NCBI GenBank assembly: GCA_029781535.1
Contig: JAKOWL010000002.1
Span: 1 to 50,684 of the forward strand
Length of the DNA: 50,684 nucleotides
Source: Pseudomonadota bacterium
GTDB taxonomy: Bacteria > Pseudomonadota > Gammaproteobacteria > Burkholderiales > Methylophilaceae
Reading direction: 5' to 3'
Of this stretch, positions 10,638 through 46,847 are shown in pieces. Positions within the stretch are counted from its first letter, which is position 1, and every line of letters begins with the position of its first letter. Made by a program: the position numbers and the translations under genes. The notes beneath the pieces are model-generated. The model searched no databases. It saw nothing but the letters and a program-made list of their open reading frames with translations, and was not told where the DNA came from.

Positions 10638-10718
10638 GCGTGTGCGTTCATTATTGAAGCGCATGCGCCGCAAGCCAAGCGGGACGCGGATTTCAGGACG
10701 GTATTGATGGCAATGAAA
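10638..10718 (-). repeat. Dispersed ~81-bp palindromic repeat, copy D
   Basis: Read on the complement, this element begins TTTCATTGCCATC two bases after the feoB stop codon, passes through CGTCCTGAAATCCGCG and TCCCGCTTGGCTTG, and ends ATAATGAACGCACACGC. It aligns over its whole length with copies at 29473-29552, 36145-36226 and 46767-46847. The ends are inverted (TTCATT / AATGAA). It is the most diverged of the four at the left end. The rest of the purL-feoB gap holds only a small hairpin (AGCCG at 10601, CGGCT at 10613). Confidence 0.75.
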
Positions 10719-10720
10719 AG

Positions 10721-12511
10721 TCAGAACCCTAGTGCACGAGCCGCTTGGTAGAAAATAAAGCTGACGACCCAGGCCAGACAAAGCGACCAGGCGATGGACA
10801 GCCACATGAACCTGCTGCTCTTCGATTCGCTGCGCAACGTGGCGATGGTTGAGAGGCAAGGCGTGTAGATGAGCGTGAACAGCATGAAGCTCATACCCTG
10901 TACCCAATCCACCTGCATGGCAATCTGCTGCATCAGCGAATCGCCCTGCAGGCCGTAAATCACAGCGAGCGAGCCGATGACGATTTCTTTGGCCACAAAA
11001 CCAAAAATCAAGGCAATGGCTAGCTGACTGTTGATGCCGATGGGCTCTAGCAATGGCCCAAACAATATGCCGATTTTACCAGCCAGTGTGTCATGGCTTG
11101 CTGGTGGTACATCGCCAGGATAGTGTGTTAACAGCCACACCATCACCACGCCGACCACAATGAATTTGGTGGCGCGCTTGAGGAAATGTTTTACTTCCTG
11201 CCAGCCGCGCAACCATATTTGACGCGCAGTAGGGAAGCGGTAAGGCGGTAACTCCAGGATGAAGGGTTCCTGGTTAGGGAACTGACCTTTGAATAAAAAG
11301 GCAGTCAAGAAGATGGTGGCGAAACTGACCATGTAGAGCGAGAACATCACCCACGGCGCCTGTTGTGGGTTAAACAGGATAGCAATCATGAACAGGAATA
11401 CTTGTAATCGCGCAGAACACAACGAGAGCGGTATCGTCAGCATAGTCAGAAGGCGCATGCCTCTAGCACGCATGACGCGCGTACCCATCAGTGCCGGCAC
11501 GTTGCAGCCGAATCCCATCAACATCATGACGAACCCGCGCCCGTCCAGCCCAAGTTTTGCCATCAAGGCATCCGTCAGGAAGGCTGCGCGTGACAAGTAG
11601 CCACTGTCTTCCACCATGCTCATCACCAGAAAAAACAGGACAATGATGGGAACAAAGGCGGCAACGGTACTCACGCCGTTGAATACCCCGTCGAGCAGCA
11701 GACCGCTGAGCCAAGCGGGAGCGCTGGCGAAGGCAGGTTCCAGAAGCAGGGTGCGGAATTCGGTCAGCAGCCAGTTCATGCCATCCTGCAAGGGCTTGCC
11801 GGCAGTGAAGATGAACTGGAACAGCAGGAACATCGCCAGAAAGAAGATTGGCAATCCTAGCCATGGATGCAGCAGGATCTTATCTATTTTGTCGGTTGTC
11901 TCATTCGCTAAAGTGGCAGGTATCTGGACGGAGTTTTTGACGATCTCATGCATTTCAGATTCGATCTGCGTGTCTGCTTCCAGTTGATGGGCGATCGTCT
12001 GTGGTGATGCGCCAGCAAGCGTTTGATTGAGCAGCAGCCCGATGCTTTGCAACGCTTCCGGGCATCCATCGCCGTATTTTGCGCTGATTTTCAATACAGG
12101 CAACCCGAGTGCCTTAGACATTTTTTCAGTATCCAGCGTAATGCCGGCACGCTTGGCTTCATCTTGCATGTTCAGCAGCACTATTGCCGGAACGCCCAGG
12201 TTGCGAATCTGCAACGCGAGCGATAATTGGCGATCGATCTGTGATGTATTTAATAAGACGATTGCCAAATCAATCTGATTGCCGCTGAGAAAATGACGCA
12301 CCACCTGTTCGTCATCCGAGAATCCATGCAGATCATAAATGCCGGGTAAATCGATAAGCTCTGCGATATGCCCGCCCGCAAGGATCTTTGCACTCATCAG
12401 GTCGACGGTGATGCCGGGCCAGTTGCCGACACGTGCAGAAGCACCGCTCAGGCGGTTGAACAAGGTGGATTTGCCCGTATTGGGCATGCCGAGCAGTGCA
12501 AGTCGCTTCAT
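10721..12511 (-). CDS. feoB: Ferrous iron transporter FeoB
   Basis: A 596-aa inner-membrane Fe(II) importer. The N-terminal G domain has G1 GMPNTGKS (8-15), G3 DLPG (54-57), G4 NMQD (114-117) and G5 ISA. The membrane part has the two Gate/core signatures, including GFGCNVPALMGTRVMRARGMR and FVAKEIVIGSLAVIYG. It is shorter than the roughly 770-aa enterobacterial FeoB, a common short form. It lies 9 nt downstream of feoA and is co-transcribed with it. No feoC is seen. Its stop codon is followed directly by repeat copy D. Confidence 0.97.
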   Translation of the reverse strand: MKRLALLGMPNTGKSTLFNRLSGASARVGNWPGITVDLMSAKILAGGHIAELIDLPGIYDLHGFSDDEQVVRHFLSGNQIDLAIVLLNTSQIDRQLSLALQIRNLGVPAIVLLNMQDEAKRAGITLDTEKMSKALGLPVLKISAKYGDGCPEALQSIGLLLNQTLAGASPQTIAHQLEADTQIESEMHEIVKNSVQIPATLANETTDKIDKILLHPWLGLPIFFLAMFLLFQFIFTAGKPLQDGMNWLLTEFRTLLLEPAFASAPAWLSGLLLDGVFNGVSTVAAFVPIIVLFFLVMSMVEDSGYLSRAAFLTDALMAKLGLDGRGFVMMLMGFGCNVPALMGTRVMRARGMRLLTMLTIPLSLCSARLQVFLFMIAILFNPQQAPWVMFSLYMVSFATIFLTAFLFKGQFPNQEPFILELPPYRFPTARQIWLRGWQEVKHFLKRATKFIVVGVVMVWLLTHYPGDVPPASHDTLAGKIGILFGPLLEPIGINSQLAIALIFGFVAKEIVIGSLAVIYGLQGDSLMQQIAMQVDWVQGMSFMLFTLIYTPCLSTIATLRSESKSSRFMWLSIAWSLCLAWVVSFIFYQAARALGF

Positions 12512-12520
12512 GAGAAAGGG

Positions 12521-12745
12521 TTATTGGTTTATCTGAATCAGGTTGGCTTCGGACTCACGCAAAATGATATCGGTTGCACCGATTCTAACCTGTAACGGCC
12601 CTTGAAAGTTAGCTCGCCGAATCATCTCGATTTTTTTGCCTGCGCGAAATCCTAACGCCAATAAACGCTGATACAACTGCTGTTCTGCATGGATGGCACC
12701 GATGGTAGCTATCTCTCCGGGAGTTAATTGACTGAGTAGGCGCAT
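12521..12745 (-). CDS. feoA: Ferrous iron transport protein FeoA
   Basis: A 74-aa SH3-like FeoA (MRLLSQLTPGEIATIGAI...RLLALGFRAGKKIEMIRRANFQGPLQVRIGATDIILRESEANLIQI). The ATG at 12745 was chosen because the family starts at this point; the longer frame to 12814 would add an unrelated 23-residue leader crossing the promoter area. It is cytoplasmic and supports FeoB-mediated iron uptake. It is first in the feoAB operon. An AT-rich inverted repeat upstream could be a Fur site. Confidence 0.92.
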   Translation of the reverse strand: MRLLSQLTPGEIATIGAIHAEQQLYQRLLALGFRAGKKIEMIRRANFQGPLQVRIGATDIILRESEANLIQINQ

Positions 12746-44824: not shown

Positions 44825-44874
44825 ATAAAGAAATTTGGTTTTTGGTACAAATAAATTTAAAGGGACGAACTTTG

Positions 44875-46755
44875 ATGATGACATCACAAAAAGAAACTCT
44901 GGGCTTTCAGGCCGAAGTCAAACAGCTGCTGCATTTGATGATCCACTCGCTTTACAGCAACAAGGAGATCGTGTTGCGCGAGCTGATCTCCAATGCTTCG
45001 GATGCGGCAGACAAGCTGCGTTTTGAGGCGCTGAACAATGGCAGCCTGTATGGCGACGACAGCGACCTGAAGATTCGTATTTCGTTTGATAAATCCGCAC
45101 GCACGCTGACCATCAGCGATAACGGCATCGGCATGAGCCGCCAGGAAGTCATCGACAACATCGGCACCATCGCCAAATCCGGCACCAAGGCATTCCTGCA
45201 ATCATTGACCGGCGACCAGGCCAAGGACGCGAATCTGATCGGACAATTTGGCGTTGGTTTCTATTCCGCATTCATTCTGGCGGATAAGGTGACCTTAACC
45301 ACGCGCCGTGCTGGCGAGGCGGAGGCGACGCAATGGCAATCCAGCGGCGAGGGTGAGTTCACCATTGAATCCGCCGAAAAATCCGGGCGAGGTACTGATG
45401 TGATCTTGCATCTGCGCGATGACGAAGATGAGTTCCTGAATGACTGGAAGATAAAGACCATCATTCGCAAGTATTCCGACCATATCACTTTGCCGATCGT
45501 GATGAAGAAATCGGAGTGGAAAGACGGCGAGCAAGTGCCGACCGATGAAGATGAAGTCGTCAACAAGGCATCCGCACTGTGGGCGCGCAGCAAGAACGAC
45601 ATTTCCGAGGACGAATACAAGGAATTCTACAAGCACGTATCGCACGATTTCGAGGAACCGCTGACTTGGGTGCACAATCGCGTCGAGGGTAAGCAGGAAT
45701 ATATATCCCTGCTGTATGTACCGGGCAAGGCGCCGTTCGATCTGTATGACCGCGAGCAACGCCATGGCATCAAGCTGTATGTGAAGCGCGTGTTCATTAT
45801 GGAAGATGCCGAGAAGCTCATGCCGCATTACCTGCGTTTCGTGCGCGGCGTGATTGATTCTGCCGATTTGCCGTTGAACGTGTCACGCGAGATCCTGCAG
45901 CATAGCAAGGACATCGAATCCATCAAGTCCGCTTCCACCAAGCGTGTGCTGGATCTGCTGGAAGACATGGCGGCCAACAAGCCTGAGGATTACCAGAACT
46001 TCTGGGATCAGTTCGGCCGCGTGCTGAAAGAAGGCCCGCCTGAGGATTTTGCCAACAAGGACAAGATAGCCGGGTTGTTAAGATTTTCTAGTACGCTTGC
46101 GGATAGCGAGGCGCAGAACGTATCGTTCAAGGATTACGTCAGCCGCATGAAGGAAGGCCAGGAGGCCATCTACTACATCACTGCTGACAGCTTTGCGGCC
46201 GCGAAGAACAGTCCGCATCTGGAGATCTTCCGCAAGAAGGGCATCGAGGTGTTGCTGCTGTCCGACCGCGTGGACGAGTGGATGTTGGGCGGCCTGTTCG
46301 AGGTGGAAGGCAAGAAACTGCAGTCCGTTGCCAAGGGTGATCTAGATCTGGGCAAGCTGGAAGACGAAAGCGAAAAAGAAGCGCAGAAGAAAATCGAAGA
46401 TGCGGCGAAAGATGTGGTGGAAAAAATCCAGTCCGCATTGGGCGACAGGGTGAAAGAAGTGCGTGTGACGCATCGCCTGACTGATTCGCCGGCATGCCTA
46501 GTGGCGGGCGAACATGACATCTCCGGCAACCTGGAGCGCATGCTCAAGGCGGCAGGGCAGAAGACCCCGGAAAACAAACCGACGCTGGAGATCAATCCGG
46601 AACATAAGCTGATCGAGCGCCTGAAGAATGAAACTAACCAGGCTGTATTCGATGATTTGACCAGTCTTTTGTTCGATCAGGCTTTGCTGGCAGAAGGGGG
46701 CCAGCTGGAAGATCCGGCCAGTTTCGTCAAACGCATGAACAAACTCATCGTTTAA
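44875..46755 (+). CDS. htpG: Chaperone protein HtpG (Hsp90)
   Basis: A 626-aa Hsp90 chaperone. The GHKL ATPase has [51 protein letters not shown] and [17 protein letters not shown]; the middle domain has [11 protein letters not shown] and the catalytic Arg region; the C-terminal dimerisation domain is intact. ATG 44875 (second ATG at 44878) follows an AAAGGGA site; the longer frame from 44842 runs into the promoter. Transcription is from a clear sigma-32 promoter. It ends 11 nt before repeat copy B. Confidence 0.99.
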
Positions 46756-46766
46756 TAAGCGTTAAT

Positions 46767-46847
46767 TTTCATTATCAACCCCGTCGGCCTGGAAGGCGCA
46801 CCCAGCTTGCCTTCCAGGCCGATTGTTTTTGCAATGAACGTGCGCGC
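46767..46847 (+). repeat. Dispersed ~81-bp palindromic repeat, copy B
   Basis: It begins TTTCATTATCAACCCC 11 nt after the htpG stop, contains CGGCCTGGAAGGCGCACCC, GCTTGCCTTC, and ends GCAATGAACGTGCGCGC. It aligns end to end with the other three copies and has inverted ends. In this copy alone the interior has become a long perfect hairpin with a T-run. Confidence 0.8.
46784..46830 (+). terminator. Strong hairpin terminator of htpG inside repeat copy B
   Basis: A perfect 14-bp stem (TCGGCCTGGAAGGC 46784-46797; GCCTTCCAGGCCGA 46809-46822) with an 11-nt loop is followed by TTGTTTTT. It is well placed to end htpG transcription and insulate glgP. Confidence 0.85.

Follow-up and report, generated by a model that had tools for sequence, protein, structure and literature searches.

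What kind of element is an 81-bp palindrome that occurs four times in a 50,684-bp stretch of DNA (contig JAKOWL010000002.1 of the draft assembly GCA_029781535.1; the whole stretch is called the window here), each time next to a stop codon? It could be a mobile repeat inserted at the ends of genes, an RNA signal of the genes that it follows, or a DNA site that has arisen in place. Comparison across the draft genome and its relatives points, tentatively and with slightly less than even confidence, to a sequence-recognised DNA site whose copies build up in place in a manner comparable with that of uptake sequences; a simple miniature inverted-repeat transposable element (MITE) or an inserted decoration of gene ends is the less favoured reading. 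Two features go beyond the preliminary description of the window: a conserved tail of alternating pyrimidines and purines (Y-R) after the box AATGAA, and four shortened core sites inside genes.

The element belongs to a large genomic family

The coordinates first proposed for the four copies are correct to 1–2 nt, and the copies align end to end with a mean column identity of 77%. Their resemblance is far above chance. At 10 bits or more, the profiles A3 and A6 each detect 8 sites in the window, which are the four elements and the four in-gene sites; in the controls, which total 1,662,800 bp from 48 stretches of congeners, four named neighbours and 76 stretches of other bacteria, they give 2 and 0 matches, respectively. 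Profile scores rest on small training sets, and those of A3 and A6 do not contain the four in-gene window sites.

The draft genome comprises 2.39 Mb in 252 contigs and is 94.7% complete. A sequence-only model built from the four window copies (R1) was searched against it, a scan that the preliminary description had proposed, and a large family of further copies was found. R1 scores its own four copies at 68–80 bits, by construction, and dozens of further places at 40–74 bits. The best 150 of 1379 candidates were scored, many of them representing one palindromic place matched on both strands, and the R1 matches listed include at least 105 distinct places. Fetching the stretches around the matches and removing duplicates gave at least 95 distinct matches, at least 70 of which score 38 bits or more, nearly all of these being full-length. 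The stretches from this genome and from its relatives were selected by their matches, and the window by its four elements.

Full copies are found at gene 3' ends. With genes called by a simple in-house gene caller, 53 of the 68 intergenic copies scoring at least 38 bits have a stop codon facing them at a distance of no more than 60 nt, which extends to the genome the gene-end placement of a dispersed palindrome of near-constant length noticed in the window.

Conserved blocks and free spacers

Column counts over 78 copies scoring at least 33 bits, with their flanks, give a fixed order of blocks: TTTTCATT(A/G), a weakly constrained spacer of ~12 bases, GSCCTGNAAGSC, an 11-base centre, GSCTTNCAGGSC, a spacer of ~10 bases and AATGAA. 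The core palindrome can be written CTGNAAGSC-11-GSCTTNCAG. It is symmetrical about position 38 and is framed by the outer boxes TTCATT and AATGAA, which are present as terminal inverted repeats with at most one mismatch per box in 62 of the 78 copies. The 11-base centre is asymmetric, mostly GCATCCAGATT in this genome. The copies vary in their spacers and hardly at all in length.

As calculated from the column counts, C and G vary independently at the two members of each mirror pair (31/45 and 22/54), a pattern more in keeping with two half-sites bound by a protein than with base pairing in a stem. A covariation screen of the copies in this genome ranked nothing but the CG-tail register at its top and returned no core-stem pairs. 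Another left arm, CGAG(A/C)AAAAA, stands beside the core at five loci of genome G151 (L229, L230, L232, L233 and L235) and at L087 in this genome; copies with this arm possibly form a second subfamily.

The tail follows AATGAA directly; a few flipped copies (L021, L039, L056, L082) have it ahead of TTCATT instead. Its letters differ among copies and the Y-R alternation is kept, mostly over 8–18 nt and often with two purines at the end. A Y-R run of at least 8 on at least one side is present in 64 of 67 copies from this genome and 22 of 28 from relatives, compared with 1.7% of 20,000 random starts; copies without a recognisable arm (3 of 70 and 6 of 34, respectively) were left out, and since the models contain the first eight tail positions, the search favours alternating tails. 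Alternation beyond these eight positions is not part of the models. The pattern AATGAAYGCGYR has 48 matches in this genome, where its reversed form has 2, and 3–4 in four congeners; in G176 and G151 it is not clearly above its control. A tail element separate from the palindrome was considered and rejected, because all matches to AATGAAYGCGYR in this genome except two (C93, C178) fall at elements, as judged against the R1 list.

Core sites inside genes, several without a change in length

Twenty-one of the 95 distinct matches fall inside called genes, mostly as cores without arms; one of them (L007) probably lies in an over-extended open reading frame (ORF). The hosts encode MurF, MutL, a PolA fragment, an IscS-like desulfurase (two sites), an ABC-F ATPase, HpnE, NadC, RlmD, RnfC/RsxC (two), a CobU-type protein, prephenate dehydrogenase, BioB and others. 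The names were assigned with NCBIfam, some below the curated cut-off (e.g. PolA, IscS-like and TcdA). Within the fetched stretches of this genome, 20 of the 83 sites scoring at least 20 bits are in genes, as are 11 of the 21 sites of 8–20 bits. Of the 21 sites that run opposite to their gene, 20 are read in a single frame, giving segments like KTPALEANLDAASRG; the 10 sites in the gene sense are split 5/5 between two frames.

Genus orthologues were compared for four genes, and the other genes were aligned with named relatives or PDB entries. In the IscS-like desulfurase, site 1 aligns without gaps to all 13 orthologues from the genus and site 2 to 12 of them, L307 having one residue more. The LepA site is gapless against all five relatives, and the PurL site at 7749, the RlmD site and the TcdA site are each gapless against one PDB homologue. 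At 6 of the 9 sites examined the sequence is altered and the length unchanged. Such gapless alignment with homologues indicates that native sequence gave way to the motif at several of the sites tested. At the place beside NadC (L090), 13 congeneric stretches contain no element. The named neighbours are only 65–77% identical and are therefore too distant for an empty-site comparison.

Patchy distribution among relatives

LepA of the window is 93% identical to that of a Methylotenera sp. (L108), 90% to that of Ca. Methylopumilus (L110) and 87% to that of an uncultured member of the Methylophilaceae (L111), which places the window in this family. A model from 62 copies (R2), run on 187 family genomes at E 1e-6, matches 20 of them, this genome included, in 5 of 24 genera. 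Within its own genus only this genome matches at that threshold; 20 listed congeners and G007 have no match. Relaxing the threshold to E 1e-3 gives one match (E 1.7e-5 to 7e-4) in each of four of 18 congeners, located in a gene read by eye as serS. We take these as chance resemblance, though a link is possible. Other genera contain full copies alongside core-only copies in different flanks.

A core model (R3) was run on 399 genomes of the order, drawn evenly from the larger group, and matches five: this genome, G341, G376, G315 and, with one weak match, G297. As read from the comparison by eye, 18 of 60 fetched loci in relatives have an adjacent gene in common with an element of this genome. 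Best-matching pairs of elements at such common places are only L049–L208, L087–L230 and L087–L244, so that common descent is shown for few places. Carriage by phages was considered and set aside, as two patterns gave no match in viral_contigs.

A putative protein-read site compared with uptake sequences

A DNA site that is read by a protein and builds up in place is suggested by the near-fixed spacing of the blocks, the free spacers between them, the independent variation of the two half-sites and the in-gene sites, most of which align without gaps. Gene-end placement, the weaker sites of similar kind, a Y-R alternation kept without its sequence and a spacing of sites more even than random (see below) also agree with this reading. 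The unit is a dyad core of ~33–41 bp, in which inverted half-sites CTGNAAGSC enclose the 11-bp asymmetric centre. Between genes, this core is extended by TTCATT and AATGAA, about one helical turn away, and by the one-sided Y-R tract. The putative protein would recognise the site, and DNA bearing it would gain an advantage through biased uptake and recombination, as for DNA uptake sequences (DUS), or through selection for a role of the bound protein at the ends of transcription units. An uptake-type drive appears somewhat more likely than the latter. A wider version of this proposal is doubtful: the element would be a genome-wide recognition motif of the Methylophilaceae that overwrites native sequence, conserved codons included, its long dyad and degenerate forms accumulating as an uptake or recombination signal beside DUS and the uptake signal sequences (USS), with a Y-R tract attached that is kept as a pattern. 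Sites arising in place would point either to a sequence drive acting across the whole genome or to a long binding site on the chromosome, and the open-access literature searched showed neither for these methylotrophs.

Excerpts of PMC2346458 and PMC3630211 describe uptake sequences as inverted pairs at terminators and as in-gene copies with one favoured orientation, and place them in genome-maintenance genes. The element resembles the DUS of Neisseriaceae and USS of Pasteurellaceae, as characterised in these excerpts, in its inverted pairs at gene ends, its oriented in-gene copies and its patchiness among lineages. Genome-maintenance hosts occur here as well (MutL, the PolA fragment and a family-4 uracil-DNA glycosylase (UDG)), among many other functions. 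DUS dialects conserve CTG and the A at +10, i.e. CTGNA (PMC3630211, excerpt), and the half-site of the element keeps CTGNAA, a likeness that may be a coincidence. The element differs in having a dyad core of 33–41 bp instead of a 10–12-mer, in its ~100 sites instead of thousands, and in the bacterial families concerned.

Several results weigh against a site of this kind. With at least 95 matches and at least 105 places, the ~100 sites are twenty to thirty-five times fewer than the ~1900–3600 DUS per genome given in the excerpted part of PMC3630211, and they fall short of the thousand copies or more that a genome with DUS would be expected to hold. Single half-sites show no clear enrichment after GC matching: CTGSAAGSC occurs at 21.7 versus 13.6 per 100 kb, and near-control words vary as much. 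Two in-gene matches do have arms, L054 in a 378-aa ORF without a name and L071 in the family-4 UDG. MurF shows a net gain of 5 aa and NadC of 4 aa relative to orthologues, and pure substitution would not lengthen a protein; the MutL site falls in a non-aligning linker and is ambiguous. A few outer arms change on both sides together (TTTATT/AATAAA in G138 and G181, TTCAATAG/CTATTGAA in L071), and given these changes the arms may pair. In G376 and G341, which belong to another family, the core forms arrays of alternating orientation, as in mobile repeats. G315 likewise resembles a carrier of a mobile repeat, with nine equal-scoring matches near contig ends; the four fetched (L254–L257) have identical 31-nt core matches within an apparent multi-copy repeat that broke the assembly.

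A short uptake motif was also considered and rejected: a first k-mer count gave no outstanding word, and GC-matched controls erased most of the half-site enrichment. The word TGGAAGCCG, with 13 occurrences in this genome versus 0 in relatives, is among three tied top words and persists after GC matching; we make no claim of an uptake motif for it.

The mobile-repeat alternative

The main rival to a site accumulating in place is a non-autonomous mobile repeat resembling a MITE or a repetitive extragenic palindrome (REP). Its spread would depend on a transposase supplied in trans, and copies would persist at the ends of genes and, like Rickettsia palindromic elements, in tolerant coding regions; the low similarity of the copies would reflect age. 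Dispersal with a patchy distribution over genera (20 of 187 family genomes), near-constant length, the arrays and contig-end matches described above and the gains in MurF and NadC all agree with mobility, and REPs at gene ends and within repair genes have precedents in the excerpted text of PMC3733652. We nevertheless consider this explanation less likely than a site accumulating in place. The Y1 transposase family (PF01797) has no match in this draft genome or in 10 of the 19 other carriers, i.e. in 11 of 20, some Y1_Tnp being present in the remaining 9. Column counts over the 78 copies and their flanks contain no conserved GTAG or CGTC tetranucleotide tag, and no target-site duplication was seen by eye in the flanks of the copies. 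The gapless in-gene sites, and boxes that are conserved between free spacers, also argue against it.

The preliminary description had suggested a MITE- or REP-type unit. The REP-like placement and the terminal inverted repeats bear this out in part, whereas a plain MITE or a REP mobilised by a REP-associated tyrosine transposase (RAYT) is disfavoured by the missing Y1 match, the blocks with free spacers and the mostly gapless in-gene cores. Membership in the RAYT/REP system was rejected for this genome, which has neither a PF01797 match nor a conserved GTAG or CGTC tag. The likeness to REPs and bacterial interspersed mosaic elements (BIMEs) of the GTAG and CGTC superfamilies lies in short palindromes at gene 3' ends, between convergent genes and in part within genes (PMC3733652, excerpt, where dRS3 is also named). 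The element differs from them by lacking these tags in conserved form and a match to Y1 transposase in its own genome, by its 11-base centre, outer boxes and Y-R tail, and by its mostly gapless in-gene sites. With Rickettsia palindromic elements it shares a palindromic repeat that is translated in frame within conserved protein genes (excerpts of PMC3733652 and PMC2229807); these are insertions according to the former, whereas several sites here show no change in length.

A mobile origin would imply a palindromic repeat family, with no transposase found, that mostly replaces coding sequence at constant length, which simple insertion fails to explain. Mobility and accumulation in place would each account for the odd protein segments, like KTPALEANLDAASRG, in MutL, PolA, MurF and others.

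Placement, spacing and RNA structure

Another possibility is a BIME-like site of chromosome topology or nucleoid structure at the ends of transcription units, where the dyad and Y-R tract would absorb supercoiling or bind gyrase or a nucleoid protein between convergent genes. Among the 65 intergenic copies with genes on both sides, 29 are convergent, 28 codirectional and 8 divergent. Of the 18 gaps of at least 90 nt in the window, 1 is convergent; over all stretches fetched from this genome the count is 27 of 114, element-bearing gaps included. The sites are also spaced more evenly than random (coefficient of variation 0.66 versus 0.97, P 0.0025; 77 sites on 30 contigs), in a test that used contigs of at least 20 kb with at least one listed site, left out those without, and is affected by the constraint that genes themselves place on spacing. 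Together with an alternation conserved without its sequence, these results are what such a site would lead one to expect. It is improbable all the same: in-gene cores mostly lack arms and tail, the listed congeners have no match, and the Y-R alternation may reflect another constraint.

Least probable is a conserved stem-loop that acts as an intrinsic terminator in both directions or as a 3' RNA element. It would suit the gene-end placement and the good folding of copy 2 (one strand) and copy 4 (both strands), with z -3.3 to -4.8, as well as the A-run, stem and T-run of some core-only copies in g30/g31 genomes. Against it, copies 1 and 3 do not clearly outdo their shuffles in folding, whichever strand is taken (best z -1.3), the core stem shows no compensatory covariation in this genome, copies occur inside genes, and the centre and boxes are conserved although a terminator requires neither. 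The codirectional copies, 11 in the gene sense and 17 opposite, favour neither strand, a result unfavourable to a 3' mRNA element. Such an element, raised in the first account of the window, is in a strand-specific form not borne out by this split, the covariation screen or the folding of copies 1 and 3. Rfam gave no match in the window at the gathering score and none at E 0.1 in nine loci.

Excerpts of the open-access full text contained no description of the element, and the core 13-mers were unmatched there; PMC2267715, as excerpted, covers stem-loop families including those of Bordetella, which were not compared. Judging by title, none of the open-access papers listed for the Methylophilaceae concerns such a palindromic repeat.

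Sites in the window and neighbouring features

The positions of the elements, tails and in-gene sites are collected in Table 1. The distance of 2–11 nt from a stop codon, as first described, holds for copies 2, 3 and 4 (2, 11 and 10 nt), and the feoB copy was measured at 1 nt. Pfam supports the gene names feoB, acpS and htpG; the name "membrane cytochrome" is unsupported, the ORF at 28633–29469 having no Pfam or NCBIfam match.

Table 1. Elements, Y-R tails and in-gene core sites of the 50,684-bp window.
Feature	Position	Strand	Remarks
Full element, copy 1	10639–10719	-	feoB sense; 1 nt past the feoB stop codon
Y-R tail, copy 1	10637–10646	-	10 nt
Full element, copy 2	29472–29552	+	2 nt past the stop codon of ORF 28633–29469; upstream of lepA
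Y-R tail, copy 2	29545–29552	+	8 nt
Full element, copy 3	36147–36227	-	11 nt past the acpS stop codon; inverted, tail side towards acpS
Y-R tail, copy 3	36140–36154	-	15 nt
Full element, copy 4	46766–46846	+	10 nt past the htpG stop codon
Y-R tail, copy 4	46839–46854	+	16 nt
Core-only site in purL	7749–7809	+	21–22 bits (A3-type profiles), 12.5 bits (A6); gapless against PurL of PDB 1t3t
Weak core-like site in purL	6931–6953	-	12–13 bits
Core-only site in lepA	30280–30331	-	19.7 to 27.5 bits by profile; gapless against lepA of five relatives
Weak core-like site in tcdA	36877–36915	-	13–15 bits; gapless against TcdA of PDB 4yed

At 36215–36233 the tcdA ORF starts at the TTTTCATT end of copy 3, and the element may overlap the start region of tcdA. 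In other loci, a second repeat of ~150–300 bp, 75–87% identical across genera, flanks some copies of the element (L010, 1572–1792; L019, 1532–1846; L212, L217, L219 and L236). The right flank of L019, whose element lies at 1501–1579, also contains, just beside the element, GTCATTCCGCGAAGGCGGGAAT, which resembles a CGTC-type (dRS3-like) REP.

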